Below, in pieces: positions 1,450-21,660 of a stretch of 36,073 nucleotides of DNA. The stretch comes from Nitrospirota bacterium (lineage in GTDB: Bacteria; Nitrospirota; Nitrospiria; Nitrospirales; UBA8639): positions 1-36,073 of the forward strand of contig JAQBUF010000033.1 of NCBI GenBank assembly GCA_027623995.1. Reading direction: 5' to 3'. The number at the start of each line of letters is the position of its first letter. Within the stretch, counting starts at the first letter, position 1. The notes under the pieces were generated by a model that was not told the origin of the DNA, made no database searches, and saw only the letters and a list, made by a program, of their open reading frames with translations. A program made the position numbers and the translations under genes.

Positions 1450-2880
1450 CTAGGCAAGCCGAGAGAATGCTTCTAAGGCTCGTTCTCGGGAATCTCCGAG
1501 GTTGACGATGGGCTTGGGATAATTTTCCCCAAGCTTCACACCTGCCTCAGCTAATACCTTTTCCGGTGCTTCCCAGGGGTTGTGCAGGTATTTGGCTGGC
1601 ATCTTTTTTAGACCAGGGATGAACCGTCGAACGTATTTGCCGTCCGGATCGAATTTTTGGCCTTGGGTGACGGGGTTGAAAATTCTGAAGTAGGGCGCGG
1701 CATCGGCTCCGCAGCCTGCGATCCATTGCCAGCTTGCGCTGTTGTTGGCCAGGTCTGCATCCACCAACGTATCCCAAAACCAGTCCTCCCCGTGATGCCA
1801 GTGCAACAACAGGTTTTTGACGAGAAACGATCCGACGATCATGCGCACCCGGTTATGCATGTAGCCGGTTTCCCAGAGTTCGCGCATCCCGGCATCGACG
1901 ATGGGATAACCCGTTCGGCCTTGTTGCCAACGCTTCAGCGCTTTTTCATCCTTGCGCCAGGGGAAGGCATTGAATTTGGTTTGAAGGTTTTTTCGGGGCA
2001 GATTGGGAAAATGAAAAAGCAGATTGTTGGAAAACTCCCGCCAGCCTAATTCACTATGAAAGGTTTCTCCATCAGTCCTCATGCCTCCCTGGCTCATTAC
2101 GTGTTTGGCCGCATGCCACACGTCGTTGGGTGAGATTTCGCCAAAGTGCAGATGCGGCGATAATCGGGAGACATTATTCCTGTCAGGAAAATTCCGGCCT
2201 TCCTTGTAGCCGTGAAGTCCCTTTTTCAGAAACGCTTTTAGTCGGGCCTGAGCTCCGGCTTCGCCGGGTTGCCAATGTTTCGCCAGTTTCTTATGCCAGG
2301 GAATGGTGGGGAGCAGTGTTAAATCCTTAAGCGCTACACCCTTGTGGCTGACGAGTGATAAGTCTTTCGGGGCCTTCTCTGGCCTTCGAGGTTCGTTTCC
2401 CTTCCTCAGGTATCTATTTTTAAAGAAGGGTGTGAAGACCTTATATGGCGTGCCGTCGCTTTTGCGCGTGGCTTGGGGTTCAAACAGCAGGGCACCATTA
2501 AAGGTGTGGACTTCCATGCCTGCTTGGGTCAATGTTTTTTGAATGCCCGCGTCGCGTGTGATTCGCCAGGGTTCGTAACATCGATTCCAGTAAATCGCAG
2601 TTGCTCCCGACTTTTTGATGATGTCTTTTAAGACCTCTTGCGCTGGTCCTGCCCGGAGGCACAGTTTTTTCTCCAGTGCATCGTTCAGTGCTTTGAGACT
2701 TTCATGCAACCACCAGCGGCTGGCCGCGCCTAATTTCCACTCTCCGCTCGATTCATCATCAAGAATACATACCGGAATAATGGGCTGCCCGGTTTGATGC
2801 GCGGCGAGGAGGGCTGGATTGTCTCTAATTCTTAAATCTTGACGGAACCAGACGACGACGGGCGAGTTTTTTGTTGTCAT
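1450..2880 (-). CDS. phr: Deoxyribodipyrimidine photolyase (class I CPD type)
   Basis: A 476-residue FAD-dependent DNA photolyase that uses blue/near-UV light to split cyclobutane pyrimidine dimers. The N-terminal antenna domain begins VVVWFRQDLRIRDNPALL. The FAD/DNA-binding core includes GRTGYPIVDAGMREL, TGYMHNRVRM, WFWDTLVDADLANN and WQWIAGCGADAAPYFRIFNP, all diagnostic of the class I family. I place the start at the ATG at 2880, with AAGAAG just upstream, because this gives the standard family length. The frame remains open to 3111, but that extension reads through a REP-like repeat and has no family counterpart. In E. coli phr is co-transcribed with ybgA (DUF1722); a TudS-DUF1722 gene lies 2.3 kb upstream here on the same strand. 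A diverged copy of the C-terminus lies at 629-840. Confidence 0.95.
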   Translation of the reverse strand: MTTKNSPVVVWFRQDLRIRDNPALLAAHQTGQPIIPVCILDDESSGEWKLGAASRWWLHESLKALNDALEKKLCLRAGPAQEVLKDIIKKSGATAIYWNRCYEPWRITRDAGIQKTLTQAGMEVHTFNGALLFEPQATRKSDGTPYKVFTPFFKNRYLRKGNEPRRPEKAPKDLSLVSHKGVALKDLTLLPTIPWHKKLAKHWQPGEAGAQARLKAFLKKGLHGYKEGRNFPDRNNVSRLSPHLHFGEISPNDVWHAAKHVMSQGGMRTDGETFHSELGWREFSNNLLFHFPNLPRKNLQTKFNAFPWRKDEKALKRWQQGRTGYPIVDAGMRELWETGYMHNRVRMIVGSFLVKNLLLHWHHGEDWFWDTLVDADLANNSASWQWIAGCGADAAPYFRIFNPVTQGQKFDPDGKYVRRFIPGLKKMPAKYLHNPWEAPEKVLAEAGVKLGENYPKPIVNLGDSRERALEAFSRLA

Positions 2881-2893
2881 GTCTTCTTGCGTG

Positions 2894-3051
2894 TGTAGCT
2901 GCGGCATCTCATGCCGCCTCTTCTTTTGTTTTTCTAGGAGGTGGGAAGATCGGAAGAGGGCACGACCTGCCTGCGCGCTTGCGCGTTGAAGTGCTTCGGC
3001 GCGTAAACGCGAAGCCGCTTCGGCGGAGGCAGGTGAGATCGTGCAGCGACA
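2894..3051. repeat. Composite REP-like palindromic repeat
   Basis: The left unit (2894-2923) runs TGTAGCTGC - stem GGCAT, loop CTC, stem ATGCC - GCCTCTTC. The right unit is its inverted partner (GGAAGAGG ... GCAGCGACA, ending at 3051), with hairpin GCACGAT-GAG-ATCGTGC, but it is interrupted by a 68-base insertion. The same bipartite element recurs intact at 29096-29182. The outer bases are conserved between copies while stem bases change in compensating pairs. This is the pattern of a REP/BIME family. It begins 13 bases upstream of the phr ATG. Confidence 0.8.
2966..3033. repeat. Small palindromic element nested in the REP hairpin
   Basis: A 68-base insert bounded by inverted ends CCTGCCT (2966-2972) and AGGCAGG (3027-3033). 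It is filled with GC-rich mini-hairpins such as CGCG-TAAA-CGCG and GAAG-CCG-CTTC. Removing it restores a perfect 7-base-pair REP stem, GCACGAT-GAG-ATCGTGC, so it inserted between the A and T of that stem without visible target duplication. Confidence 0.7.
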
Positions 3052-3098
3052 AAAGATTCTCCCTTCGTTCCCAAAGGGCACGATGGGAAGAATTTCTT

Positions 3099-3986
3099 CT
3101 ACTCTTTCCAATCGAAGCCGGAGGCGTTGGCGAGTTCACGGGGTTTGATCAGGCCGGTGAGTCGTTTTTCACCGATGACCCATGTGGGATAACTTTTGAT
3201 GTCGTTCTTTACGCATGGCGCGGTGAGTGCGCTGCCCCGTCCGCCTGAGCTGCATTCGACATAGGGGAGTCGTTTAGCGGATGACGCAAAGACGGATTTC
3301 TGTTCTTGGCAGCGGGGGCACCAGTAGGCGCCATAGAATTTGACCCCGGTTTTTTCCAAATGCATGGCCAGGGCCTGAAGCTGGGGATCTTCGGGACCGG
3401 CTGAAGCGTCGAAGACGCCGCTATAGTGCATGTGTAGCGCCGCTACGATGAGGACTGCCACGACAGCGGCTTCTTTGACCGATGTCAGCCATTCGGGCGG
3501 TTGCCGCACCATGGTCAGGATCATAATCGTCGTGATGATCAGGAATGAGGCCAGGCAATACGGGCAGGTCGCTTCGATTTCTATCACTGAGACGATGGTC
3601 AGGTAGGCACTGATGGCGAAGCCGCAAACCGCGAAGAAAATTAGCGGCGTCCAGCTTCCAATCTTGGTGCGTGCCCGCCATGCGAGTCCCGCAATGAGGA
3701 TGTAGGTGAGGCATCCCCAGAGAGCCATGGGGACGCTAAGGAAGGTGGCCCAACGACTGCTCTGCACGATGTCACACCCAGAGCCTTCGCTACAAAACGC
3801 GGGGTGTTCTCCAAACGAGGCGGTAAATGTCAGATACGCGGTCAATAGGGTTCCAGCTACTGACAGTACAAGGACAACCATATCAATGGGGGACATTTTC
3901 TTTGAAGCCGGAGTAGCAGGCGTGCTGGAAACTTTTTGAGTCCCATCCGCACTTCCTGTTTTTTCACGTTTATTTCGTTTGGCCAT
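3099..3986 (-). CDS. VKOR-family disulfide-forming protein fused to a thioredoxin-like domain
   Basis: A 295-residue integral membrane protein. A Lys-rich cytoplasmic N-terminus precedes four to five membrane helices (about 35-56, 80-102, 113-135, 144-162, 171-186). VKOR catalytic features are a loop cysteine pair at residues 65 and 71 (FCSEGSGC), the S/T-containing segment before VPMALWG, and the quinone-side CPYC at 141-144. A periplasmic thioredoxin-like domain follows, with CPRC at 223-226, a second Cys pair at 245/258 and cis-proline in SYPTW. Bacterial VKOR-Trx fusions re-oxidise secreted proteins by passing electrons to quinone, in place of DsbA/DsbB. The ATG at 3986 is preceded by AAAGGAAG. 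Several neighbours are exported proteins that could be substrates. Confidence 0.92.
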   Translation of the reverse strand: MAKRNKREKTGSADGTQKVSSTPATPASKKMSPIDMVVLVLSVAGTLLTAYLTFTASFGEHPAFCSEGSGCDIVQSSRWATFLSVPMALWGCLTYILIAGLAWRARTKIGSWTPLIFFAVCGFAISAYLTIVSVIEIEATCPYCLASFLIITTIMILTMVRQPPEWLTSVKEAAVVAVLIVAALHMHYSGVFDASAGPEDPQLQALAMHLEKTGVKFYGAYWCPRCQEQKSVFASSAKRLPYVECSSGGRGSALTAPCVKNDIKSYPTWVIGEKRLTGLIKPRELANASGFDWKE

Positions 3987-5212: not shown

Positions 5213-6214
5213 TTACACATGATTCCGCAACATGAGTTCCTTGGGATGTGGCGTCAGGTACACCTGATCGAGTAAATAGCTGATCTGGTGGATTCTGACA
5301 TAATGAACAATAAGCGTGAGGGGCACGATAAGGGGAGTGAGCCCTCGATGATAGTCTTCAATGACCTCGACCAATTCCTGGCGTTCCTCTCGTGACAGTT
5401 CCTTTTTTAAAAATCCCGCCAGGTGTTGGAGGACATCGACATGTTTTCTGGTGGTGACCTTGACCTTGAGAGCTTCCATGAACAGAGTTCCATACTCGGC
5501 CATCAATTCGCTTGGAGAATATTTTTTGCTATTTGCAACGAGTTGACCCAACTTTTGATAATGGGTCCGACCATGGGCCAACAACAAAAATTTGTGTCGG
5601 GTATGAAAGTCGATGAGAGCCCGTCGGCTGACTCGCGTTTGATTCAGGAGACGCCATCGTTGGTAGCAAAAGACACGTTCGACAAAATTCTCCCTCAAGA
5701 TGGGATCATTTAAACGCCCGTCTTCCTCAACGGGAATCAGGGGATTGTTCTCGATAAATCTTTGGGCGAACAGTCCTCTTCCATGAGGGTTGGGCATTCC
5801 ATGATCATTATAGATGCGCACCCGATGGACTCCACAGCTTGGCGAATCCTTTTTAAAGACAAAGCCATCTAAATTCATCGTTCCAAGTTCTTGTACTTTT
5901 TTCTGGGAATATTTTTTCAGGAGGGAGGTGTGATCTTTCTTTGTCTTGATGGTGAGCAGGGTTGGATCGCTGGAACTTCCTACTAAGCGCATAGCCTCTC
6001 TGGGAATACCCAACCCCGCCTCGTATTCCGGGCAGACAGGGACCCATTCGACGAATTGGCTGAAGGTATCGGTTAAAAACCTGTCACGTTTGTGTCCCCC
6101 ATCAAATCTCACTTCATCTCCCAGTAGGCACCGACTGATACCGATGCGGAGTGTTGAGGGAAGCGCACCGTTTGCGCCTTCAGGTGTTTCGGGTTTCGTA
6201 AGTTTCTTCTTCAT
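5213..6214 (-). CDS. TudS-like (DUF523) / DUF1722 (YbgA) fusion protein
   Basis: A 333-residue two-domain protein. Residues 23-165 are DUF523/TudS: GISRCLLGDEVRFDGGHKRD (Cys29), VPVCPEYEAGLGIPRE (Cys61) and FKKDSPSCGVHRV (Cys127). The three cysteines match the ligands of the [4Fe-4S] cluster in thiouracil desulfidases. Residues about 205-325 are DUF1722, the E. coli YbgA domain (FHTRHKFLLLAHGRTHYQKLG; LTLIVHYV). The fusion is common, and this family is often encoded beside photolyase genes, as is phr here. It may act in handling sulfur-modified or photodamaged nucleobases, but no function is proven for the DUF1722 half. Confidence 0.92.
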   Translation of the reverse strand: MKKKLTKPETPEGANGALPSTLRIGISRCLLGDEVRFDGGHKRDRFLTDTFSQFVEWVPVCPEYEAGLGIPREAMRLVGSSSDPTLLTIKTKKDHTSLLKKYSQKKVQELGTMNLDGFVFKKDSPSCGVHRVRIYNDHGMPNPHGRGLFAQRFIENNPLIPVEEDGRLNDPILRENFVERVFCYQRWRLLNQTRVSRRALIDFHTRHKFLLLAHGRTHYQKLGQLVANSKKYSPSELMAEYGTLFMEALKVKVTTRKHVDVLQHLAGFLKKELSREERQELVEVIEDYHRGLTPLIVPLTLIVHYVRIHQISYLLDQVYLTPHPKELMLRNHV

Positions 6215-7293: not shown

Positions 7294-7868
7294 TCAGGAC
7301 TCTTGTCCTAGAACGCGACGGGCCGCATCAAATGCAGCTCGAAAGTTTGGCAGTTGGCTCATGGGTACAATTTCAATATACCGGATCATATTCTCCTCAT
7401 CCACAACGAGCACAGCTCGCTGCAAGATTTGATGCATGGGATGAAGTAGACCTGTTTTTTGCCAAAATCAAAATGAGGAGAGTCAGATAAAAACCTGATA
7501 TTGGCAATATTGGCCTTTTCTGAGAAAATTTTTTGGTCCTTGTGTGTATTTGTGCTGATGGTGACAATCTCAAGGTATTGATCCAATCCTTCATTCTTTT
7601 CGCTAAACCGATGTGTCTGTTCATCGCACACAGGGGTGTTGAGCTGAGGAACCATGCTAAGAATTTTCACATGGCCCTTGAGTTCGCTCAGTTGGATCGT
7701 GGAATTATCCGCGCCAAGGAGGTTGGCGTCAGGAAGTTCCTGCCCACGGGAAAGGTTCGTCGCGATCGACCAGGCAGGAACACTGAAAAGCAATAGAGCA
7801 AAGAGACTGATGACATTCATCTGGAAATATCTCATCAACAGACGCTTGAAGTAGAACCTATCGTGCAT
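7294..7868 (-). pseudogene. Exported thiol peroxidase (Tpx-like), frameshifted
   Basis: A peroxiredoxin of the Tpx type with an N-terminal signal sequence (NVISLFALLLFSVPAWS). The peroxidatic cysteine is in LNTPVCDEQTHRF (Cys81), and IVTISTNTHKDQKIF and FLSDSPHFDFGKK follow the family. After GKK the reading frame is lost. If one base is added to the A6 run (T6 at 7455-7460 on the plus strand) it continues TGLLHPMHQILQRAVLVVDEE and ends at 7294, giving a normal Tpx C-terminus and 191 residues. As written, the frame ends at 7386 with an unrelated tail. I see no resolving Cys at the usual helix position. The cause may be a homopolymer sequencing error, a true mutation, or slippage. The start at 7868 is supported by AAAGGAAA. 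Confidence 0.85.
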
Positions 7869-7905: not shown

Positions 7906-8832
7906 TCATGAACCTTTTTCCAGTATTGCATAAAGAGCAGACTGGAGATGGGGATATGTAAAAGAAAACCCAAGTTTTTGAGCAATCAAAGGATTCACCA
8001 ATTGACCATGGGTCATCAGTGTAGACAATTCACCCAATACGATGTTTAGCATAAACGCAGGGACTGGAAGCCAGGATGGTCTCCCCAATGCCTTTCCCAG
8101 TTGAACACAAAATTCTTTCATCGTGACCGGATGGGGAGAGGCTGCGTTGATGGGACCTTTGTAGGAATCATGTTCAAGAATGGTCGCGATGAGGCGAACG
8201 AGATCCTCCACGTGAATCCAACTGACAGGTTGAGTCTCATCGCCAATGGGCCCTCCCAAAAAGAGTTGAAAAGGGAGTAGCATTTTTTTGAGTGCCCCAC
8301 CATCTTTCCCTAACACCATACTCGTCCGTAGGCAGACGGTCCGAACTCCATAGTCGGTTGCCCTGAAGGCTTCTTCTTCCCATTCCACACACAACTCAGC
8401 CAGAAAACCCTTTCCAGGCTTGGCTAATTCATCGACAGCGTTCTTCCCTTCAAGACCATAATAGCCAATCCCGGATGCGTTGATGAGCACTTTTGGTCGA
8501 TCGGTTATGGGAAGATTGGACAACGCATTCACAATCATGCGAGTTGTATCGATCCGGCTCGACCGAAGCATTTCCTTTCGTGATGGCGTCCATCGGCCAT
8601 CCGCGATTGATCCTCCGGCCAGATTGATGACGGCATCCTGCCCCAATAAATTTTTCTCCAGTCCCCCCCATTTCAGGCGGTCCCACTCATGAAGGTGAAC
8701 TTGCGTGGGAAGCACCTTTTGCCCTCGTGAAGTATTTCGTGTGAGAACGGTCACTTCGTGTTGTCGTTGGAGTAATTGAGGACAAAGGTGTCTCCCGATA
8801 AAACCAGTTCCTCCTGCAATGACGATATTCAT
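7906..8832 (-). CDS. TIGR01777-family NAD(P)-binding epimerase-like protein
   Basis: A 308-residue extended short-chain dehydrogenase-like protein of the YfcH/SDR39U1 group. It has a Rossmann motif (IVIAGGTGFIGRHL) at the N-terminus, INLAGGSIADGRWT, INASGIGYYG and the C-terminal DUF1731-like region (GRPSWLPVPAFMLNIVLGE). The substrate is unknown for the family. The ATG at 8832 overlaps the stop of the upstream SUMF1-like gene as ATGA, so the two are translationally coupled. The longer frame to 8883 reads into that gene and is rejected. Homologues occur beside photolyase/TudS genes in other bacteria, which fits this neighbourhood. Confidence 0.9.
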   Translation of the reverse strand: MNIVIAGGTGFIGRHLCPQLLQRQHEVTVLTRNTSRGQKVLPTQVHLHEWDRLKWGGLEKNLLGQDAVINLAGGSIADGRWTPSRKEMLRSSRIDTTRMIVNALSNLPITDRPKVLINASGIGYYGLEGKNAVDELAKPGKGFLAELCVEWEEEAFRATDYGVRTVCLRTSMVLGKDGGALKKMLLPFQLFLGGPIGDETQPVSWIHVEDLVRLIATILEHDSYKGPINAASPHPVTMKEFCVQLGKALGRPSWLPVPAFMLNIVLGELSTLMTHGQLVNPLIAQKLGFSFTYPHLQSALYAILEKGS

Positions 8833-9653
8833 CTGGATTTTCCTATCGTTGGTTGCGCCTCTGTAGAAAGATCTTTGGCGCAACGGAACCCTGTTCCATG
8901 AGTTTTGAGTGCGAATCCTCCCTTCCCCCTTGCTGCTGCTCTGATGTCTGCGTCGAAGCTTCGCCAGGAACCTCCTCGGATGACCTTGAGTAGACTCTTC
9001 TCGGGCCCTTTGGGATTTCGTTGGGGAGCCTGTTGATAATAATCTTTGTCATACCAATCCTGGACCCACTCCCTTGCATTGCCAGACATGTCATGTACTC
9101 CATAAGCTGAGGCGCCTTTGGGCTGTGATCCCACTGGCTTGAGGGTATCTTTGTCTGCCCAATCATGATCATAGTTGGCATGTAAGGGAGATGGTTCCTG
9201 GTCACCCCAGGGATACATTCTGCCATCCGTGCCTCTTGCAGCCTTTTCCCATTCGGCTTCTGTGGGCAGCCGCTTTCCTCCCCATTGACAGTAGTCAGCG
9301 GCATCATGCCATGTCACTTGGACCACAGGGAGATTCTCAATCCCTGGCGCTGTGGATAGAGAACCCTCCGCATAGACGTTGAATGGTTCTTTGTGTCCGG
9401 TGGCAGCAATGAAGGCCAGATAACGTGAATTGGTCACTTCATATTTATCAATTGAAAACGCATTCAAAAATATCTTAGTTCTTGGCATTTCGTCCGCACG
9501 TCCCGCTCCCTCGCTACTCCCTCGAATAAAACTGCCGGCTGGAATGTTCACCATGGGAACATCATCCCTTTCCACCACCGGATGGTCAGCCAATGCAGGG
9601 AGATGGCAAAGGAGCAGGCCAATCGCCAGTTTTGTGATTCGTGTCAGGTTCAT
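8829..9653 (-). CDS. Exported SUMF1-like (FGE-sulfatase domain) protein A
   Basis: A 274-residue protein with a signal peptide (LAIGLLLCHLPALA) followed by one formylglycine-generating-enzyme-like domain: MVNIPAGSFIRGS, IDKYEVTNSRYLAFIAATGH, VTWHDAADYCQWGGKRLPTE, MYPWGD, GVHDMSGNAREWVQDWYD, VIRGGSWRS and GTGFRCAKD. The two catalytic cysteines found near GGS in true FGE are absent (GGSWRSFDADIRAAARG). It is therefore unlikely to convert sulfatase cysteines and fits the wider SUMF1/EgtB/PvdO/NirV group. It overlaps the next gene downstream and the one upstream by 4 bases each, so the three genes form a tight operon. Confidence 0.9.
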   Translation of the reverse strand: MNLTRITKLAIGLLLCHLPALADHPVVERDDVPMVNIPAGSFIRGSSEGAGRADEMPRTKIFLNAFSIDKYEVTNSRYLAFIAATGHKEPFNVYAEGSLSTAPGIENLPVVQVTWHDAADYCQWGGKRLPTEAEWEKAARGTDGRMYPWGDQEPSPLHANYDHDWADKDTLKPVGSQPKGASAYGVHDMSGNAREWVQDWYDKDYYQQAPQRNPKGPEKSLLKVIRGGSWRSFDADIRAAARGKGGFALKTHGTGFRCAKDLSTEAQPTIGKSR

Positions 9654-10021
9654 TGTTTTTGCCTTTGACTATCTTCCTTAATTTGATGAGATATTTTTTT
9701 AATTCGATCGGTGATTTCGAATACGGTCAACGTGTCATTTGCTCTAGCCGCGTTACGGGCATCAACTAATAAGAGACGAGATTCATGCAAGGCTTGTTCA
9801 ATCTTCGTCTGCATATCTGGGGACGCCAGGGTGCCACCCAGTGCGGCATGATGGAACGCTTCCCATGCTTCCTCGACGCTTTTCCCCGCAAGATACAATG
9901 ATTCCTCTACAGGATTCTGTGGGGTGAACTGTCCCCCCGCGGGGACGGCCCAGGCCAGACCCATCCCCCACGTCATGCTCAAGGCTATAAAGGTGATTTT
10001 TATAAGAGTTAGATTTTTCAC
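9650..10021 (-). CDS. Small exported helical protein of unknown function
   Basis: A 123-residue protein with a GTG start at 10021 preceded by AGAGGTGA. It has a signal peptide (ITFIALSMTWGMGLAWAVPAGG), then a mostly helical, charged domain (SLYLAGKSVEEAWEAFHHAA; KIEQALHESRLLLVDARNAARAND) with no cysteines. I recognise no family. Its stop overlaps the SUMF1-like A start (ATGA), so the products are probably made together and may interact in the periplasm. Confidence 0.75.
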   Translation of the reverse strand: MKNLTLIKITFIALSMTWGMGLAWAVPAGGQFTPQNPVEESLYLAGKSVEEAWEAFHHAALGGTLASPDMQTKIEQALHESRLLLVDARNAARANDTLTVFEITDRIKKISHQIKEDSQRQKQ

Positions 10022-10099: not shown

Positions 10100-11197
10100 C
10101 TACGGTTCCCTTTTGCCTTTTTCGACAATTTTCTTAAGCCGCAATAAATTTTCATTACGTGGATCAATTTTTAGAGCTTGGTCAATGTAGGTTTCTGCTT
10201 CTTTGTACCGCTCCAGGCCCACTTCCTTCATTGCTTCGATGGCGTAGGTTCGAATAGCATCCTCGATTTCTTGCGAGGCGGTCTTGGCGCATCTGAAACC
10301 CAGTCCCACGCCATAACTATTGTTCATGGGGTGATTCCAAAATCTGTGGGTCGTAGTCACGGTATGGTCCGCCGCAATCCAGGATCCACCACGCACAACC
10401 TTTTTTTCGCCGACTGTCAGACGATCGACATAGGTTCCCGTTCCACCCAACCACACAGCTTTAGGCGGTCCAGTAGGATTCGGAGGAAGCGGTCGTTGGG
10501 AATAATAGTTAGGGTCATACCAATCGTGGACCCATTCGAAGACATTCCCAGCCATGTGGTGAAGACCATAAGGACTCACCGCCTCCGGGAGCGAATCAAT
10601 GGGCATGGTGGATTTATTCCGCTTGCCATTGTTCACATGCTTTGCATTAAATGTATTCCCCCAGGGATATCGAAGGCCTTCAGGGCCTCGAGCGGCATGC
10701 TCCCACTCGGCTTCTGTCGGCAGGCGTTTGCCCTCCCATTCACAAAAGGCTTTCGCGTCATTCCAATTGACTCCCACCACCGGCTGCATGGCTCCGTTTA
10801 ATCGTGGATCGTCCCAGTAGGCCGGAGCCGCATGCCCCGTGGCTTTCATGAATTGACCAAATTTGCGATTCGACACTTCGTATTTATCTATTAAGTAGGA
10901 GCTTAGTAAGACCCAATGAGCAGGACCCTCGTCCTGAAATGCCGACTTTGACCAGGGCATGGACATTCTTCGTTGATACAAGGAGGGTGTTTCAGCTTTG
11001 AAAGATGGAATTGTATCCGGATTTTTATCGAGTCCTATGATAACGACGCCAAAGGGTATGTAGGCCATGTCCTCTGGAATGGCATTGAGAGATTCTGCTT
11101 GGGCGGAGGGAATAATATTGAATGATAGGCTCAGGGTAATCATAAATACCCAAAACATATTGAAACTCGTTGTTTTATGGATGCGTGTTTCAGTCAT
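10100..11197 (-). CDS. Exported SUMF1-like protein B with TPR-like tail
   Basis: A 365-residue protein. The ATG at 11197 is chosen because AAAAGGGAAATTCAC precedes it; ATGs at 11221 and 11215 lack this. It has a signal peptide (VFMITLSLSFNIIPSAQA), an FGE-sulfatase domain (IDKYEVSNRKFGQFMKATGH, VNWNDAKAFCEWEGKRLPTE, MAGNVFEWVHDWYDPNYY, VVRGGSWIAADHTVTTTHRF, GVGLGFRCAK) and a C-terminal TPR-like helix pair (ERYKEAETYIDQALKIDPRN). No FGE cysteine pair is present. It is clearly paralogous to protein C over its whole length, including the tail. Confidence 0.9.
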   Translation of the reverse strand: MTETRIHKTTSFNMFWVFMITLSLSFNIIPSAQAESLNAIPEDMAYIPFGVVIIGLDKNPDTIPSFKAETPSLYQRRMSMPWSKSAFQDEGPAHWVLLSSYLIDKYEVSNRKFGQFMKATGHAAPAYWDDPRLNGAMQPVVGVNWNDAKAFCEWEGKRLPTEAEWEHAARGPEGLRYPWGNTFNAKHVNNGKRNKSTMPIDSLPEAVSPYGLHHMAGNVFEWVHDWYDPNYYSQRPLPPNPTGPPKAVWLGGTGTYVDRLTVGEKKVVRGGSWIAADHTVTTTHRFWNHPMNNSYGVGLGFRCAKTASQEIEDAIRTYAIEAMKEVGLERYKEAETYIDQALKIDPRNENLLRLKKIVEKGKREP

Positions 11198-11232
11198 GTG
11201 AATTTCCCTTTTCATTAACATTCAAGCCCCAA

Positions 11233-11273: not shown

Positions 11274-12218
11274 TTAGTTCTTGATCTCTTTCAAAATCAT
11301 TTTTCGGGTTTCTTGATATTCCCTATTTTCTGGATCGTTCTCCAGGGCTTTGTCGATGGACATCAATGCGTCATTCCATCTCTCTTTGCCCATGCTGATG
11401 AGAGAATGCATGAAGTGGTAGCGAACCATTTCCATGCTGTCACCATCCGCGGATTTCGCACATCGGAATCCCAGACCCACTCCATAGGAGTTGTTTTCTG
11501 GTTGATTCCAGAATCGATGACTGGTGTGCAGGGAAGTTTGCGGAGCCAACCATGATCCACCCTTCAGCACCTTCACTGGACCCTGGTTCGCGAAGTTGTA
11601 TCCACCTGCTGGTCCTTGAGGGTTCAGTGCTGGGCTTACTTGAAAGTAATTTGGGTCATACCAATCATTCACCCATTCGAATACATTGCCGGCCATGTTG
11701 TACAACCCATATCCACTCACTCCCTCGGGATAGGAATCCACGGGTTTGGTTTTGCCAACATTTTGTCCGTAATTTGCTCGTGTAGGATCTATCTTGTGTC
11801 CCCAGGGGTAATGACTTTCATCAGGGCCTTTGGCCGCGCGTTCCCATTCAGCTTCGGTGGGAAGTCTTTTACCCTTCCATTCACAGAAGGCGTTGGAGTC
11901 GTACCAATTTACTCCGACCACAGGTTGGTTTGGACTGTTCAGGCGGGGGTCATCCCAATACGCCGGGGCCGGGTGTTTGGTGGCCTTCATAAACTCTCGA
12001 TACTGCGCGTTCGACACCTCGTATTTATCAATGTGGTAACCGCCTACCACCACCTTATGAGGAGCTTCATCGCTATGATCTTTGCTTCCCATGTTGAATT
12101 CACCTTGGGGAATGAACACCATGTCATCGGTATTTGCTGCCAGGGCGGTGGCCCCTGGAGCGACTGTCAAGGATAATGACATGAGAATCGCGTTGGTGGA
12201 TGTGAAGAGTTTGTTCAT
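11274..12218 (-). CDS. Exported SUMF1-like protein C with TPR-like tail
   Basis: A 314-residue protein. The ATG at 12218 has AAAGGAGAT 8 bases upstream; the frame's upstream extension to 12269 has no ribosome-binding site. It has a signal peptide (ILMSLSLTVAPGATALA) and an FGE-sulfatase domain (MVFIPQGEFNMGSKDHSDEA, IDKYEVSNAQYREFMKATKH, VNWYDSNAFCEWKGKRLPTE, MAGNVFEWVNDWYDPNYF, KGGSWLAPQTSLHTSHRFW, GVGLGFRCAKS). A helical tail resembles one TPR (KERWNDALMSIDKALENDPE). The FGE active-site cysteines are absent. HRFWN-P-NNSYGVGLGFRCAK is shared almost exactly with protein B, which points to a gene duplication. Confidence 0.9.
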   Translation of the reverse strand: MNKLFTSTNAILMSLSLTVAPGATALAANTDDMVFIPQGEFNMGSKDHSDEAPHKVVVGGYHIDKYEVSNAQYREFMKATKHPAPAYWDDPRLNSPNQPVVGVNWYDSNAFCEWKGKRLPTEAEWERAAKGPDESHYPWGHKIDPTRANYGQNVGKTKPVDSYPEGVSGYGLYNMAGNVFEWVNDWYDPNYFQVSPALNPQGPAGGYNFANQGPVKVLKGGSWLAPQTSLHTSHRFWNQPENNSYGVGLGFRCAKSADGDSMEMVRYHFMHSLISMGKERWNDALMSIDKALENDPENREYQETRKMILKEIKN

Positions 12219-12271
12219 GATTTGATCTCCTTTTTTGAAACAATTGGTTTGTGGTTGACTGTATTTCATTG

Positions 12272-12559
12272 TTAATTACTGACTGACTGCATCTTTCCCC
12301 AGCGTCGTCGGTGTTCCTGCTTGGGGTTTGGAAGCTCGGCGCGGGTCCGATTTTCGAGAATGAGCGAATCCACGACATCCCCACATTGCACGCACCGAAG
12401 AGCCCACCGACGCATTTGGCCCGTTTGGTCGTAGAGATCAAAAAGGCTTTCCCTGATGAACAGGCCACCGCATCGCGTGCAGGGGAATGAGTTCTGTTCC
12501 CCTTGATGCATCCCATCTGACACCAGGGGGCTGGTTTGGGTTGCTAGGTAGGTCGCCAT
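12272..12559 (-). CDS. Small zinc-ribbon protein
   Basis: A 95-residue protein beginning MATYLATQTSPLVSDG. Two CxxC knuckles (PCTRCGG and RCVQCGD), separated by about 25 residues, form a probable zinc ribbon. The Arg-rich C-terminus (KQEHRRRWGK) could contact nucleic acid. In-frame ATGs exist at 12610 and 12601. However, the predicted sigma-54 start site near 12613 would leave those almost leaderless, so the ATG at 12559, preceded by a purine-rich AAAGAAAAGAAAAAG tract, is preferred. It is the first gene of the SUMF1-like unit. Its role is unknown. Confidence 0.75.
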   Translation of the reverse strand: MATYLATQTSPLVSDGMHQGEQNSFPCTRCGGLFIRESLFDLYDQTGQMRRWALRCVQCGDVVDSLILENRTRAELPNPKQEHRRRWGKMQSVSN

Positions 12560-12623
12560 GACTTTTTCTTTTCTTTCTATGAGACAGTGTGTGTTTTTCA
12601 TTTCCTTCATGTTCGTTACTTAA

Positions 12624-12640
12624 TCCAATTCTCGTGCCAA
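12624..12640 (-). promoter_or_regulatory. Sigma-54 promoter upstream of the SUMF1-like operon
   Basis: On the minus strand the sequence is TTGGCACGAGAATTGGA. The sigma-54 consensus is TTGGCACG-N4-TTGCW, and spacing and bases match except C to G in the -12 GC. Transcription should begin near 12613. The only paired palindromes in this intergenic region lie about 85-130 bases upstream, the usual distance for enhancer-binding proteins, and such an activator is encoded 1 kb away. Confidence 0.75.
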
Positions 12641-12721: not shown

Positions 12722-12769
12722 TGAGACAGAGTTATGTCTTATTAAAATGTCTCATGTATTACTGAGACA
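12722..12769. promoter_or_regulatory. Upstream activator sites, TGAGACA / TGTCTCA family
   Basis: Four half-sites: TGAGACA (12722-12728), TGTCTTA (12735-12741), TGTCTCA (12748-12754) and TGAGACA (12763-12769). The first two form a palindrome with a 6-base spacer. The same half-site and the same 6-base spacer recur upstream of the response-regulator promoter at 13622-13662. I infer binding sites for the Fis-type activator encoded at 13677-15422. Confidence 0.65.
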
Positions 12770-13001
12770 CATATTTAAGTCTGCGTTGGTTATGGGCGTA
12801 TGAGTGGATGAGGAGGGAGGCAAAAACCCCAAATGGTTTTCGAAACTAAAAAAGGACCACAGGGAAAGATGATGTTGTGGAAATGAAGAAGGAGTGAGTT
12901 GGCCTGTTGAATATTACATGTCGAGGGCCCAGAAATGCTTCAGGACAGACGGCTCGCAGCAGGGAGAGGGAATGTCCAAAAGCATGCCCTGAGTCGTAAT
13001 T
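12770..13001. other. Intergenic sequence between operon and response regulator gene
   Basis: Apart from the activator sites and promoter annotated separately, this stretch shows no credible coding frame. It would hold the transcription end of the response regulator gene, but no hairpin followed by a U run is obvious. Confidence 0.5.
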
Positions 13002-13442
13002 CTAGCCCTTGGAGGAAAAAGGAAGCCTGGCTAATTGGAACCAGAAATATTCTACGGCTTTGACAATTTCGAAAAACGGTTCAAGGTCCACAGGCTTGGT
13101 GAGGTAGCAATTCGCATGCAGTTCATAGGCTTTGGCAATATCATCTGGGTTTTGGGAAGAGCTGAGAACAATGACCGGGATTCGCTTGAGGGTTTTATCA
13201 TCCTTGATGTGTTTGAGAATTTCAAAACCATTTTTTTGGGGGAGATTCAAATCCAGCAAGATTAAATGGGGAAGGCCTTGAGAATTTTTACCTTTGACCT
13301 CATCGAGAAACCGAATGGCTATGGATCCATCAGCTAGGACGTACAAGGTTGGGTTCAGTGTTGATTCCTTTAAGGCTTCTTCAAGGAGCCGCACGTCTGC
13401 CGGGTTATCTTCTATAATGAGAATGTTCGTTTTGTCCTTCAT
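13002..13442 (-). CDS. Single-domain response regulator (CheY/Rcp1-like)
   Basis: A 146-residue receiver domain without output domain. Acidic pocket IIEDNPADVRLLEEAL, phosphoacceptor Asp in LILLDLNLPQKNGFEIL, Thr/Ser in VIVLSSS and Lys in CYLTKPVDLE are all present. The sequence style (EDNPADVRLL, LDLNLPQKNG) is that of Rcp1-type regulators paired with phytochrome-type kinases, whose HisKA motif (HDLQEPLR) is the one in the kinase at 15520-17634. It probably acts as a phosphate shuttle or sink for that kinase. The gene has its own predicted sigma-54 promoter. Confidence 0.92.
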   Translation of the reverse strand: MKDKTNILIIEDNPADVRLLEEALKESTLNPTLYVLADGSIAIRFLDEVKGKNSQGLPHLILLDLNLPQKNGFEILKHIKDDKTLKRIPVIVLSSSQNPDDIAKAYELHANCYLTKPVDLEPFFEIVKAVEYFWFQLARLPFSSKG

Positions 13443-13533
13443 ATCATTTCATTTCCACTGTGGTGTAGCCCAGATTTGAAATTTCTACCGTAGGACCAAC
13501 GAAGAATCTTCCATTGATCTTAGAGGACAGCTA

Positions 13534-13550
13534 TACAATGTTTATGCCAA
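13534..13550 (-). promoter_or_regulatory. Sigma-54 promoter upstream of the response regulator gene
   Basis: On the minus strand TTGGCATAAACATTGTA matches TTGGCACG-N4-TTGCW at the -24 GG, the following CA and the -12 TTG, with T replacing the -12 C. Start would be near 13522, giving an 80-base leader. The palindromic activator sites lie 75-130 bases upstream, the same arrangement as at 12624-12769. Confidence 0.6.
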
Positions 13551-13621
13551 CCTTGTTTTCGAAAAAACATTATTAAAAACAGTATGTTGTAAGTTTATGT
13601 GGAAGGAGAATCTTTCTAGTT

Positions 13622-13662
13622 TGAGACACCTTCGAGACAGGTTATCGTCTCATAGTGTCTCG
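13622..13662. promoter_or_regulatory. Upstream activator sites, GAGACA / GTCTC family
   Basis: Half-sites are TGAGACA (13622-13628), CGAGACA (13633-13639), CGTCTCA (13646-13652) and TGTCTCG (13656-13662). The inner pair is a palindrome with a 6-base spacer, as at 12722-12741; the outer pair is a second, wider palindrome. The sites lie just past the stop codon of the activator gene. Confidence 0.65.
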
Positions 13663-13676
13663 CATGGTGGGGAGGT

Positions 13677-15422
13677 TCAAGAAAGGTCTTGTGTGGAAAT
13701 GTTTAGATCATCCAACCACCGGTAGAAGGTGGCGCGGCTGATACCCATAAGTTTTGCGGCTTTAACTCGATTGCCTTTGGTTTGTTGAAGAGCGGACAGG
13801 ATCTGTTCCCTATTTTTCTCTGGTAGGGCAGTGGGCAATTCCAGGTGTTCTTGGTGGGCTGTAGGGCTGGGTTGCTCAAGGAGCTCAGGTGGAAAATGCT
13901 GGGGTTGAATGGTGGAGCCCTCACATTGGAGAACCGCATATTCAATGACGCTTTTAAATTCTCGCACATTACCTGGCCATGCATACTCGGTGAGTAAGTG
14001 TAAGGCTGAAGGGCTTATATCTTGAACAAATAATTTGCCCATGGCTTGACGGCATTGGCTCAGAGTGGCCGAGACTAAGAGCGGAATATCTTCTTTTCGT
14101 TCTCGAAGACCCGGCAGGCGGATTCGACCAACACGAATCCGGTACAATAGATCGGCTCGAAACTGATTGTGCGCTACTTGTTCATTTAAGTTTTGATGCG
14201 TGGCGCAGATGATACGAACATCGACCTTTCTCGGTTGCGATTCCCCCAGTCGAGTGATTTCCTTTTCTTGCAACACCCGGAGTAAATTGGTTTGGACGGT
14301 AGCAGGCATGTCTCCAATTTCATCGAGAAAGAGCGTCCCACCCTGCGCAGATTCAAAAAATCCCCGGTGGTCGGAGCTGGCTCCGGTAAACGCGCCTTTT
14401 TTGTGACCAAACAATTGGCTGCCTAACAGCGACTCCGTCAGCCCCGCACAATTCACCGCGAGAAAGGGTTTATCTTTTCTGGGGCTTGAATAGTGAAGAG
14501 CCCGCGCCACCAGTTCTTTCCCCGTGCCTGTTTCCCCTTCGATTAACACCGTCGTTTCGACCTGGGAGAGGTTTTGAATTTGCCTGTACACCTCTTGCAT
14601 GGGTTTGCACTTCCCGATCATATCGTGAAATTGGGATTTTTCATCCAGTTGTTTTCGGAGGGTATGAACCTCGGTGACATCATAGAGAAAAAACATTTTA
14701 GCTCGAGGGTCACGAGGGTCATCTTGAATGTCGATTTCCAGCCAATGTTGTGAATTTCCTGGAGTGGTGAAATGGACCAAAACCTTTTGGCGCTCTTCGA
14801 CCGGTTGATTCATGAGATGGGCCAGGACTTGGATGTCGTCGTCTGCTAACCCCAACGCATGTTGCCAGAGTTGCCCTTCGAGGCCATTATCTGTTTTTCC
14901 CAATAGCCGGATGGCGGACACACTCATGTGGAGAATCCGGCCTTCGGGGTTGGTCAAAATCGTGCCGATGTGCAGTTGATTCAAAATCGAATGGAGGTCG
15001 TCCGCGCTTTTTTTGACTTGGGCATTCACCCTTTCTAATTCAGCCTGGATGCGTTTCCTTTCAATGGCATAGTCGATGGCCCGAATGAGGACTTGGCCAT
15101 CCACTTCTCCCTTATTCAGGTAGTCTTGGGCGCCTTCTCGAACCGCCTGAATAGCGAGTTCTTGGTCGTTGAGGCCTGTGAGTAACACGAGTGGGAGCGA
15201 AGGGTAGGACTCGGCAAGTTTTCGGAATGTTTCTAACCCATGGCTATCGGGCAAGGAGAGGTCCACGAGTGCTACATCAAAATTGGCTTCTTTGAGGTGG
15301 TCAAAGGCTTGTGCAAGAGATTCGGCGTTGATGATATCCAACGAGCGACCTTGAATATCACGAAAGAGCTCCTGAATAAGGCGAGCATCCCCCGGGTTAT
15401 CTTCGAGTAAAAGGATTTTCAT
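13677..15422 (-). CDS. Sigma-54-dependent response regulator (REC-PAS-AAA+-Fis)
   Basis: A 581-residue enhancer-binding protein. The receiver domain (about 1-120) has the phosphoacceptor in VALVDLSLPDSHG. A PAS domain (about 140-255) follows. The AAA+ sigma-54 interaction domain carries Walker A GETGTGKE, the sigma-54-contact loop GAFTGA (about 343-348) and Walker B GGTLFLDEIGD. The C-terminus is a Fis-type helix-turn-helix (GNRVKAAKLMGISRATFYRW). It would activate sigma-54 promoters from distant sites after phosphorylation. The ATG at 15422 is chosen over an in-frame TTG at 15431. It lies directly downstream of the LOV kinase gene (about 100 bases), its likely partner. Confidence 0.95.
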   Translation of the reverse strand: MKILLLEDNPGDARLIQELFRDIQGRSLDIINAESLAQAFDHLKEANFDVALVDLSLPDSHGLETFRKLAESYPSLPLVLLTGLNDQELAIQAVREGAQDYLNKGEVDGQVLIRAIDYAIERKRIQAELERVNAQVKKSADDLHSILNQLHIGTILTNPEGRILHMSVSAIRLLGKTDNGLEGQLWQHALGLADDDIQVLAHLMNQPVEERQKVLVHFTTPGNSQHWLEIDIQDDPRDPRAKMFFLYDVTEVHTLRKQLDEKSQFHDMIGKCKPMQEVYRQIQNLSQVETTVLIEGETGTGKELVARALHYSSPRKDKPFLAVNCAGLTESLLGSQLFGHKKGAFTGASSDHRGFFESAQGGTLFLDEIGDMPATVQTNLLRVLQEKEITRLGESQPRKVDVRIICATHQNLNEQVAHNQFRADLLYRIRVGRIRLPGLRERKEDIPLLVSATLSQCRQAMGKLFVQDISPSALHLLTEYAWPGNVREFKSVIEYAVLQCEGSTIQPQHFPPELLEQPSPTAHQEHLELPTALPEKNREQILSALQQTKGNRVKAAKLMGISRATFYRWLDDLNISTQDLS

Positions 15423-15519
15423 TGAATCCAACTTGCTGAAGGTTGTGAACTTTCTATTTCTTTACAAAAAGATCTTAGCATATAGCAGTTCTTATAAGAG
15501 AGGGTGGCTCCAGAATCGA

Positions 15520-17634
15520 TTAAGCTCCAACTGGTGATTTGATCGTGAAATAAAATGTCGATCCTTTTCCTTGTTCAGATTCCACCCATATGCTCCCGCC
15601 ATGTTTTTCCACGATCCTTTTGCAGGTGGCCAACCCAATTCCGGTTCCGGGATATTCTTCTCGACTATGTAAACGTTGAAAAATCAAAAAGATCCGATCG
15701 AGTTGGTCGGGTGGGATGCCTATCCCATTATCACTGACAGAAAATTCCCACCCATTCGTAAGTGCCTTCGCTCCTACGTGTATTTTGGGTGCAGCATTTC
15801 CTTTAAATTTTAAGGCATTCCCAATCAAGTTTTGAAAGACTTGAGTTAAAAGCGTTGGATTCGCTTGAACACACGGAAGCGCATCATGGGTAATGTCGGC
15901 ATGATGTTCTTGTACCGAAGCCGTGAGATTTTTTATGACATGTTGACACACAAGTTCGCAGTCGGTTTTCTCGAAGGGTTTGGTTTCTGCCCCTACTCGC
16001 GAGTATTCCAGAAGATCACGAATAAGGCGTTGCATTCTGTTGGCGCCATCGACCGCGAACTCGATAAATTCATTGGCATCATCATCTAACTTCCCCTTAT
16101 AACGTTTTCTAAGTAACTGAGTGTAGCTGGCGACCATGCGCAGTGGCTCTTGAAGATCGTGCGAAGCTACATAAGCAAATTGTTGAAGCTCGTCGTTGGA
16201 TCGAGCAAGGTCCACGGTCTTTTTCGCCAGCTCGGCTTCTTGTCGTTTGCGGTGGGTGATGTCTGTTTGTACCCCAATGAAATGAGTGAGATTTCCGTAA
16301 GCATCCCTCACAGGGGCAATATAAAATTCATTCCAAAATAACGTCCCATCCTTTTTATAATTTCTCAGCTCGGCTTTCCCTTCCGTGCCTTCGCGTATAG
16401 CCTGGCGAATGTCGTCTAGTCCCGGTTGAGCACGATCCTTTCCCTGGAGAAAACGGCAGTTTTGGCCAATAACCTCTTCTCTTGTAAACCCCGTAATTTT
16501 TTCAAAAGCGGCATTACAATAGATCGTAGGCATATCTGGCTTGCGAGCATCGGCAATGAGAATTCCGTTGGTGGCGGAATTAATTGAACGATCACGAAGT
16601 GCCAGCTCTTCCTCATACAATTTGCGGCTGGTAACATTTCTTGCTGTAGCATAAATTACCTGGTCTTTTGGGCTGGGCATTGCATTCCACAGCAGCCATT
16701 TATGGGAACCATCTTTGGTGACGTATCGATTTTCAAATTGAATCGTCGGTTTGCCTTCCCTCAAGGATTCAAGCTCATTGATGGTAGACATTTTGTCTTC
16801 GGGATGTACATATTTCATGAAAGGTTGATGTTGCAATTCTTCAATGGAGTAACCGATCTCACGTTCCCAAGCAGGATTTAGTGCCTTAAATCTCCCATCC
16901 AATCCGGCGATGCAAAATAAATCCGGAGAGAGCGCAAAGAAGCGATTGCGTTCATCTTCGGCTTTTATCCGTTTTTCGATTTCTTGTTCCAGTCGTTTTC
17001 TTTTCACCACAACTTGGCGAGCGAGGATAACACTCAAAATAATGACCACTAGTCCAATGAATGGCGCGTCTCTCAATAATTTCAGTGCTTTTTCTCGAGA
17101 GTGAGTACTGAGCAATTTGACCACTTCGTCCGCATTTTGTTGAAGGTCATTTTGGATTTGAATAAGTAATGAAAATGATTCAGACGAGGGAGAGTGATCT
17201 GGGGCTTCGAATAATAAGGTTTTAGTTTTGGTGAAATATCCTTCCAAAAGGGAACGTTGTCGATCCAAGAGTTCCCGAATTTGGTCTGTCGGGGCTGGGG
17301 GGATCGAAATCCTTTCCCCGGTATAGAGGTTTACAATGACGGTTCCTCCATTTTTTAACGCATCGACGGAGACCAACAGCATATCTTGGGTTTTTTGAAG
17401 GTCGGACTGAACCCCATGAGACGCCAACATCATTTTATTAAAATACTGTTGAATCATCATTCGTTGGCGGCCTGCTATATCCACAACCATCCCATCGAGT
17501 TCGAGGTGTTTTAACGTATTAAAGATGAAGGCAAATATGGACCCCAGAGCCAGGATGAAAATCAGCACCATGGCGATCATTCTCTGCCCAATGTTCAACG
17601 GAAACGTTATTCCCAATTTGGATAATGGATTCAT
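15520..17634 (-). CDS. Membrane LOV-type sensor histidine kinase
   Basis: A 704-residue hybrid-input kinase. TM1 (about 18-40) precedes a periplasmic domain with a NarX/PilJ-like box (DIAGRQRMMIQQYFNKMM) and TM2 at about 190-210. PAS 1 spans about 230-340. PAS 2 (about 350-465) has the LOV signature: NCRFLQ with the photoactive Cys at 393, FMN-contacting Asn in IYCNAAF and LFWNEFYIAPV, and Gln in IGVQTDIT. HisKA follows with His492 in SHDLQEPLR, then HATPase_c with NLIGNALKFKG, DNGIGIPPDQ and GTGIGLATCKRIVEKHGG. LOV domains form a flavin-cysteinyl adduct in blue light. The protein may integrate light with a periplasmic ligand or membrane signal. Confidence 0.93.
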   Translation of the reverse strand: MNPLSKLGITFPLNIGQRMIAMVLIFILALGSIFAFIFNTLKHLELDGMVVDIAGRQRMMIQQYFNKMMLASHGVQSDLQKTQDMLLVSVDALKNGGTVIVNLYTGERISIPPAPTDQIRELLDRQRSLLEGYFTKTKTLLFEAPDHSPSSESFSLLIQIQNDLQQNADEVVKLLSTHSREKALKLLRDAPFIGLVVIILSVILARQVVVKRKRLEQEIEKRIKAEDERNRFFALSPDLFCIAGLDGRFKALNPAWEREIGYSIEELQHQPFMKYVHPEDKMSTINELESLREGKPTIQFENRYVTKDGSHKWLLWNAMPSPKDQVIYATARNVTSRKLYEEELALRDRSINSATNGILIADARKPDMPTIYCNAAFEKITGFTREEVIGQNCRFLQGKDRAQPGLDDIRQAIREGTEGKAELRNYKKDGTLFWNEFYIAPVRDAYGNLTHFIGVQTDITHRKRQEAELAKKTVDLARSNDELQQFAYVASHDLQEPLRMVASYTQLLRKRYKGKLDDDANEFIEFAVDGANRMQRLIRDLLEYSRVGAETKPFEKTDCELVCQHVIKNLTASVQEHHADITHDALPCVQANPTLLTQVFQNLIGNALKFKGNAAPKIHVGAKALTNGWEFSVSDNGIGIPPDQLDRIFLIFQRLHSREEYPGTGIGLATCKRIVEKHGGSIWVESEQGKGSTFYFTIKSPVGA

Positions 17635-20232: not shown

Positions 20233-21660
20233 GTGTCAGGCTTACTTCGTTGCATTTCTCGGGGGAGACTTTGTGTGCATCTTCTTTTGGTGTTGATAAG
20301 CCTCTTGTGGGTTCCTGCGCTTTTGTTTGGAAAGACTGACGCCTCTCCTGCTCAACCACCTTCGAATCCTCAGGCCATGCCGACCTTCGAAACCCTTCAC
20401 CCTGCGCCAGCGAAGACCCTCTTACCTTTCGATTTGCTCAAAAGCGATCATCACGACATTGGCGGTGAAAGTATCCCGGATGGATGGTGGTATCGCTATA
20501 CCCTGAATTCACCATTCGGAAAATTGGAGGTGTTAGGCGAGGACATGCTTCGCATTCGCGTTCATGAGGTGCAGGCATTAGCGAAGATGGACCAAGAGAT
20601 GAGTCAACCCATCGCCTTTGGCTATGGCGTGCTAGATACCGTGGTCAGTCCATTTAAATTTCTTTGGTCGCTAATCACTGAACCCAAAGAGACGTTGACG
20701 GGAGTGCCCAAGGGTATGAAGCGCGTGGGAACAAGAATTAGTGAGATGGTGACGGGAGAACGTGGAAAATTGGATGGTGGGGAAGGTTCTGAATTGATCG
20801 GATATGCAGGAGTGAAGCGAACGGTGGCCGCTGCCGCTGGGGTGAATGTGTATTCTTCCAATCTCGCACTACAGGAGCAGCTCGATCACATTGCGGTTGC
20901 AGGATATTCCGGTGGGGTGGGGTCGCGCATTGCGTTAATTCCGGTGAGTGGCCCTGTGGGCCTTGCACTGACCACTACCTCATTTAGCCGTGCTATGAAC
21001 GAAATGTTGTTGGAATATGCCCCTGAGGATTTGCGACGAATCAATCGTAAAACCCTTGAAACCATTGGCGTGCGAAAAGAGATTCGTGAGTCGTTTCTTG
21101 AGCATCCGTGGTTCTCGCCGAGACATGAAACCATTCTTGTTCAAGCCTTGGATGAAATGAAAGGGGTGGCTGATCGAAGCTTAGCACTGCAAGTGGCGAT
21201 GAACGCAAAGTCAGAGGAAGAAGCGTTGTTTATTCAACGCCTCGTAGAAATGTTTGCAAGTTATCATCAAACCGTGGTTCCGCTTGGGGAATTTATTCTG
21301 ATCGATGACCGTTTGTTGGTGGGGTATACCACGGATCACACGTTGATGTGCGCCTTGCCTTTGGCGCATGTGGCGTGGACGCAAGAGCTGGCCACTGCTG
21401 TGGATACGGTCGTCAGTTGGCACTCGCGTGCGCATCCCATTCGGCGGGTAGAATTATGGGCATCAGGAGAACTTACCCCACGAGCTCAAAATGAGTTGAA
21501 GACGCGAGGCGTCATGCTCTTTCAGAAAAAGCGGGAACGTCTGTTGCCATCGGTTCTTCCCGAACCCTTGGCATTATCGAAAAAAGTGGATGCGGTCGCC
21601 GCATCAGAAATTAATGCACCGCAAGGAACGGTGCCTGCCAAAGACCATGATAAGAAATGA
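20233..21660 (+). CDS. Exported protein of unknown function
   Basis: A 475-residue protein starting with GTG at 20233; a stop lies four codons upstream, so the start is bounded. It has an N-terminal hydrophobic segment (LCVHLLLVLISLLWVPALLF), a Pro-rich linker, and then a domain with conserved-looking segments: GWWYRYTLNSPFGKLEVLGE, VLDTVVSPFKFLWSLITEPK, TLTGVPKGMKRVGTRI and a hydrophobic stretch GPVGLALTTTSFSRAMNEM. The C-terminus is Lys-rich. I cannot assign a family. It is followed closely by a second exported protein gene on the same strand. Confidence 0.75.
   Translation: MSGLLRCISRGRLCVHLLLVLISLLWVPALLFGKTDASPAQPPSNPQAMPTFETLHPAPAKTLLPFDLLKSDHHDIGGESIPDGWWYRYTLNSPFGKLEVLGEDMLRIRVHEVQALAKMDQEMSQPIAFGYGVLDTVVSPFKFLWSLITEPKETLTGVPKGMKRVGTRISEMVTGERGKLDGGEGSELIGYAGVKRTVAAAAGVNVYSSNLALQEQLDHIAVAGYSGGVGSRIALIPVSGPVGLALTTTSFSRAMNEMLLEYAPEDLRRINRKTLETIGVRKEIRESFLEHPWFSPRHETILVQALDEMKGVADRSLALQVAMNAKSEEEALFIQRLVEMFASYHQTVVPLGEFILIDDRLLVGYTTDHTLMCALPLAHVAWTQELATAVDTVVSWHSRAHPIRRVELWASGELTPRAQNELKTRGVMLFQKKRERLLPSVLPEPLALSKKVDAVAASEINAPQGTVPAKDHDKK

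Follow-up and report, generated by a model that had tools for sequence, protein, structure and literature searches.

A putative light switch of a LOV histidine kinase and an NtrC-type sigma-54 activator in place of CarH at a photoprotection operon of Nitrospira-type nitrite oxidizers

Enhancer-binding proteins (EBPs) of the NtrC type, such as NtrC, AtoC and ZraR, combine a receiver domain (REC), an AAA+ domain with a GAFTGA motif and a Fis-type DNA-binding domain, act from palindromic sites upstream of -24/-12 promoters, and are encoded beside the gene of a kinase. The locus described here shares this architecture, but has a palindrome of its own, TGAGACA-N6-TGTCTYA, an extra PAS domain in the activator, a sensor kinase with a LOV domain, and a target gene block of the photoprotection type. 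A photoreceptor kinase can feed a regulator of the NtrC family, as in the BphP-AlgB pair of Pseudomonas aeruginosa (PMC6932827), and the same type of connection is proposed here. BphP is, however, a bilin (far-red) receptor, whereas the present kinase carries a flavin LOV domain, and BphP-AlgB controls biofilm formation and virulence rather than a photoprotection block with two sigma-54 promoters and local enhancer arrays.

LOV histidine kinases are known from Caulobacter (LovK-LovR) and Brucella (LOV-HK), the Caulobacter pair also including a single-domain receiver, as does the present locus (PMC4844311, PMC4438053). These systems feed the general stress response, while the kinase described here adjoins a sigma-54 activator. 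The receiver gene of this locus is similar to the Rcp1/RcpA phytochrome response regulators, but its neighbouring kinase is LOV-based and the gene itself is located behind a sigma-54 element. Photolyase, RudS and SDR genes, all present here, also occur in LitR/CarH clusters, where they are under light control (PMC9758184, PMC11417400). In Pseudomonas (putida/mendocina) LOV together with LitR controls light clusters (PMC9758184); the LitR/CarH-type cluster of P. mendocina, too, is linked to a LOV protein. In contrast to these clusters, the present one has no CarH gene at its head, and a LOV kinase, a phosphorelay and sigma-54 activation would replace MerR-type derepression. No LOV kinase with sigma-54 control was found in the open-access literature, of which coverage was partial.

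The analyzed window, a DNA stretch of 36,073 nucleotides, contains two promoters, P1 and P2, with sigma-54 -24/-12 elements on the minus strand: TGGCACGAGAATTG at 12626-12639, upstream of a block of genes beginning with those for a zinc-ribbon protein and a formylglycine-generating enzyme (FGE)-like protein, and TGGCATAAACATTG at 13536-13549, upstream of the Rcp1-like regulator. Both fit the TGGCAY-N5-TTG pattern; they are consensus matches without a mapped start site. The P1 element is conserved at the orthologous P1 promoters and the P2 element in 12 orthologs, and the genome contains one rpoN gene. An earlier note on this DNA had described a shared palindrome, YGAGACA-N6-YGTCTYA, within four half-sites upstream of each promoter, and inspection of the sequence bore this out. 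The P1 array has half-sites starting at 12722, 12735, 12748 and 12763, the first two forming the palindrome TGAGACA-GAGTTA-TGTCTTA (12722-12741), at positions -102 and -89 relative to the TGGCA base, and the others being TGTCTCA (12748-12754) and TGAGACA (12763-12769). The P2 array (13622-13662) has half-sites starting at 13622, 13633, 13646 and 13656, of which the inner pair forms the palindrome CGAGACA-GGTTAT-CGTCTCA (13633-13652). Counted in promoter orientation from the TGGCA base, the half-sites start 79-130 bp upstream, and the arrays as a whole occupy 73-130 bp upstream of the two elements; about 75-130 bases had been given before. At each of the two promoters, the stretch that separates it from its array contains IHF consensus matches with one mismatch; this evidence is weak, the sequence being AT-rich. 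A lone TGAGACA (12580-12586) was also seen downstream of P1, just before the likely true start (MATYL) of the zinc-ribbon protein, and occurs in genome G001 too.

The gene for an NtrC-type enhancer-binding protein (13677-15431, minus strand; probable start codon ATG 15422) terminates at 13677, leaving about 15 bp to the P2 array, in agreement with the earlier placement of a Fis-type activator gene beside one set of sites. Its product consists of REC, PAS, AAA+ and Fis HTH domains (Pfam: Response_reg, 2e-18; Sigma54_activat, 4e-70; HTH_8, 3e-8) and has the sequence hallmarks of an NtrC-type activator: a receiver with a phosphorylatable Asp in VDLSLPD, GAFTGA in the AAA+ domain, and a Fis-type HTH with the sequence ISRATFYRWL. 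That the arrays are sigma-54 enhancers of this adjacent activator, as the earlier note supposed, is the best reading of their conservation, their co-occurrence with the activator and the correlation with its recognition helix. It is the most secure part of the present interpretation and very probably correct, even in the absence of binding data.

Upstream of the activator gene, and beside it, is the gene for a sensor histidine kinase (15520-17634, minus strand), with PAS, LOV, HisKA (SHDLQEP) and HATPase domains. The LOV domain (16252-16596, minus strand; amino acids ~347-461) is preceded by an N-terminus of the membrane type and a further PAS domain. It contains the motifs GQNCRFLQG, RNYKKDGTLFWN and FIGVQTD and so has the sequence signature of a LOV photoreceptor domain, GxNCRFLQ with the photoactive Cys and the flavin-contacting N, N and Q. 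Among solved proteins it matches bacterial LOV domains first, followed by YtvA and the phototropins (best E-value 4e-34). The photoactive Cys is present in all 12 aligned orthologs and the flavin contacts are kept, except for NCRFLY in place of NCRFLQ in two orthologs of genus g4 (L180 and L013). The kinase core resembles, among other solved relatives, those of bacteriophytochrome kinases. Identification of the protein as a bacteriophytochrome (BphP) was rejected: no GAF/PHY match and no bilin domains were found, the similarity being confined to the kinase core.

The gene behind P2 (13002-13442, minus strand) codes for a single-domain response regulator of the Rcp1/RcpA type, with RcpA and Rcp1 as its best matches among solved proteins. 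It shares 28% identity and the EDNPxD start with the receiver of the activator, which is consistent with one kinase serving both receivers. This LOV sensor with its photoactive Cys, the Rcp1-like regulator and the light-response gene block described below are additions to the earlier note.

The block behind P1 is a same-strand run (minus strand throughout) that begins with a small zinc-ribbon-like protein without Pfam match (12272-12610), followed by FGE-like protein 1 with a SUMF1-like domain (11274-12269), FGE-like protein 2 (10100-11221), a conserved 123-aa protein of no family (9650-10021), FGE-like protein 3 (8829-9653), an SDR of the TIGR01777/ThyD type (7906-8883) and a peroxiredoxin-like protein (7386-7868). 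It continues with DUF4149 and PDZ proteins, a RudS-type tRNA 4-thiouridine desulfidase (TudS/DUF523 + DUF1722; 5213-6214), CbiX, a 156-aa protein, VKOR and a DNA photolyase/cryptochrome family protein (1450-3111). The RudS assignment is supported by both of its domains (2-thiour_desulf, 1e-39; DUF1722, 1e-40), and light-responsive operons are known to include RudS genes (PMC11417400). The stretch VLKGGSWLAPQTSLHTSHRFWNQPENNSYGVGLGFRCA of FGE1 was found by eye to lack the active-site Cys pair, so that the protein was not accepted as a true formylglycine-generating enzyme; the positions where the pair is expected are assumed here. Gene order is largely retained up to CbiX in genera g1 and g4. 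The photolyase gene, 9.5 kb from P1, did not turn up in those g4 regions that were examined. From P1 to this gene, the minus strand showed no convincing terminator, a result of little weight, as hits in this region remained below the level of shuffled sequence. The length of the operon is inferred, and the presence of photolyase and RudS on the P1 transcript is, together with the role of the Rcp1-like receiver, the least secure part of this interpretation. Elsewhere in the window, a 475-aa ORF without Pfam match (20233-21660) is located beside other unassigned genes.

Six genomes from other genera of the family (G003, G007, G010, G016, G017 and G025) have a divergent MerR-B12 gene, a CarH homolog, at the head of this block. 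In G007 it comprises zinc ribbon, FGE1, 123-aa protein, FGE3, photolyase and RudS (L202:6672-13097), and the product of the divergent gene matches CarH 5c8d (E-value 7e-29) with W, EH and GExH retained in the alignment, residues which are taken here to form the light-sensing site. The intergenic regions next to these CarH genes contain TTGACA-like -35 elements and TGTCTA repeats, while TGTCTYA and TGAGACA sites are absent from them. CarH operator-like TGTCTA repeats were also noted in CarH intergenic regions of six further genomes. Of the family genomes, 24 of the 36 that lack the activator have the gene found at the block head (CarH-1), as against none of the 13 that have the activator; with their clustering by lineage, these counts should be taken as a few events. 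The window genome (G000) has no CarH-1 at the block head and no match to CarH/LitR queries at E<=1e-25. These observations favor, with modest confidence, replacement of CarH by the circuit of LOV kinase, NtrC-type activator, TGAGACA sites and sigma-54 at one photoprotection operon of Nitrospira-type nitrite oxidizers.

Photoinhibition of nitrification is a field observation of long standing. It is documented (PMC9239080), and N. marina encodes photolyases and requires external B12 (PMC8115632); in a B12-dependent organism, a move from B12 to flavin as chromophore would make sense, although this is speculation. The window genome encodes the beta subunit of nitrite oxidoreductase (E-value 3e-176 to NxrB of 7b04), which makes nitrite oxidation by the organism very probable; by inference, it belongs in all likelihood to the Nitrospira group. 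Redox cues matter to such an organism, and redox state is a further signal to which LOV domains can respond. The arrays could be enhancers of the activator as proposed, with an input other than light, sensed either by the LOV domain, acting on redox state or oxygen, or by the membrane and PAS parts that precede it in the kinase, the light function being only inferred. The retention of the photoactive Cys and flavin contacts in the orthologs argues against a non-light input, as does the target block, which is headed by CarH in other genera and contains the light-operon gene RudS, and this explanation is considered unlikely. If the arrays are the enhancers of the activator, blue light is quite likely to be the signal, although photochemistry data are lacking.

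Activator orthologs with 71-92% identity are present in 12 other genomes of the two genera g1 and g4. All 12 have P2, with TGGCAYN5TTG and upstream TGAGACA-type half-sites between the activator and receiver genes, and most activator genomes have P1 before a nearby zinc-ribbon gene. In G028, P1 is found on a different contig, at its end, and in G012 it is ~10 kb away but retains the perfect palindrome; in G024 the contig ends just past the P1 sigma-54 element, making the sites unreadable. The half-sites of the P1 palindrome begin at -102 and -89 in most genomes. At P2 the half-site is retained but the layout is not: inverted pairs (> > < <) in g1 but, in most g4 genomes, three half-sites repeated directly at intervals of 10-13 bp, so that a single simple palindrome does not describe the binding mode. 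Exact TGAGACAN6TGTCTYA occurs in 9 of the 13 family genomes with the activator, the rest having more degenerate versions, as against 1 of 36 without an ortholog (Fisher 3e-6, uncorrected for phylogeny, the counts not being independent events). In the sole exception, G063, palindrome and sigma-54 element are adjacent to an EBP with 50% identity. In five genomes of family f3 (g12, g15), TGAGACA arrays and a sigma-54 element directly follow the stop codon of a related EBP. Related EBPs without a receiver domain (L209:4875-7451 and L207:5229-9184) also have the same palindrome and sigma-54 element; their neighbours are a Rab-like small GTPase, an OmpA-domain-like protein and a DUF481-like porin, with a zinc-ribbon homolog downstream in L209/L210, and the locus looks like a GTPase-linked sigma-54 system.

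The EBPs with such sites have the recognition helix SRATFYR or SRSTFYR, while no TGAGACA sites were found near EBPs with the helix ARLTLYRR. Nearby sites were likewise absent for a few SRSTFYR/SRSTLYR paralogs. The correlation between helix and motif, which rests on sequence comparison, can thus be called good but not perfect. No clustered TGAGACA sites surround a paralogous EBP of the window genome (C61:22173-23924). Three g4 genomes without the activator lack FGE1 as well. One of them, G018, was examined in detail: it has no palindrome closer than two mismatches, and FGE3 fragments (L235:9561-9693), which are all that is left of the FGE genes of the block, precede SDR, RudS, LitR and CbiX genes, as if the regulator and the regulated genes had been lost together.

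A second LitR-like gene, ~30% identical to CarH-1, follows RudS directly in G001, G012 and G021 (L173:14093-14956, L174:8824-9570 and L181:12500-13354), a place where the window has none. Its occurrence inside the block in these genomes and in G018, and the loose resemblance of the TGTCTA repeats in CarH-headed regions to TGTCTYA, leave room for a different regulator that would bind the sites and repress or co-activate P1 and P2, either a LitR/CarH paralog or a second EBP. However, G018 retains the paralog without any site closer than two mismatches, the window genome lacks a CarH/LitR match at the threshold given above, the CarH intergenic regions have no TGTCTYA, and the f3 EBPs have the motif without the light block, all of which makes such a regulator improbable.

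In 500 dinucleotide shuffles of the window, the palindrome averaged 0.004 copies per shuffle, against two observed, and no shuffle contained a 50-bp cluster with four YRAGACR half-sites, of which the actual sequence has two. Chance or repeat-derived similarity without regulatory role, for which only the presence of just two such promoters in the genome could be adduced, is hardly credible in view of these shuffles and of the conservation of the arrays at similar promoter distance in two genera despite divergence of the adjoining intergenic sequence.

The wider regulon expected in the earlier note did not materialize, genome scanning supporting P1 and P2 only. YGAGAC-N8-GTCTYA occurs three times in the 3.13-Mb genome, twice at this locus (none in the reversed control), and seven sites are within two mismatches of the perfect palindrome (one in the control); the 1.5-kb flanks of the other five contain no TGGCAYN5TTG, a pattern with 121 matches genome-wide as against 42 in the reversed control. 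Searches of G000 and G001 for palindromes with up to two mismatches and for triple GAGAC runs gave no extra regulon sites beside a sigma-54 element; half-sites were not inspected at every one of the 121 matches. The regulon thus rests on two promoters alone. G024:C69 has, outside the light block, a further array with a perfect palindrome and a sigma-54 element (L182:819-940), upstream of a secreted Calx-beta-like ORF, possibly an extra regulon member or an assembly artefact.

Taken as a whole, a light switch of LOV kinase, NtrC-type activator and sigma-54 standing in for CarH at the photoprotection operon is considered likely, though data on light, binding, phosphotransfer and expression are lacking. 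Its sites, promoter elements, domains and rpoN, together with conservation, synteny and the position of CarH in relatives, were observed computationally. On exposure to blue light, the LOV domain would form a flavin-cysteine adduct, which would shift the kinase/phosphatase balance of the sensor kinase, the direction of the light effect being inferred. By likewise inferred phosphotransfer, phosphate would reach the receiver domain of the activator, which may oligomerise on TGAGACA-N6-TGTCTYA and the flanking half-sites at about -80 to -130 (binding, too, is inferred) and remodel RNA polymerase-sigma-54 at P1 and P2. P1 would then drive the zinc-ribbon, FGE-like, SDR, peroxiredoxin and RudS genes, possibly also the photolyase, and P2 the Rcp1-like receiver, whose role is inferred and which could compete for phosphate of the same kinase as a feedback brake.

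If this is true, a LOV-to-sigma-54 transcription switch exists in nature, and its motif and activator would be a module ready for use where sigma-54 expression is to be controlled by light with little leak. Sister genera would offer a clean case of regulatory replacement, in which one operon is under two unrelated photoreceptor controls: chromophore, sigma factor and logic (activation versus derepression) would have changed, while the target genes were kept. For nitrite oxidizers, the circuit would provide a testable molecular handle on light sensing and survival.
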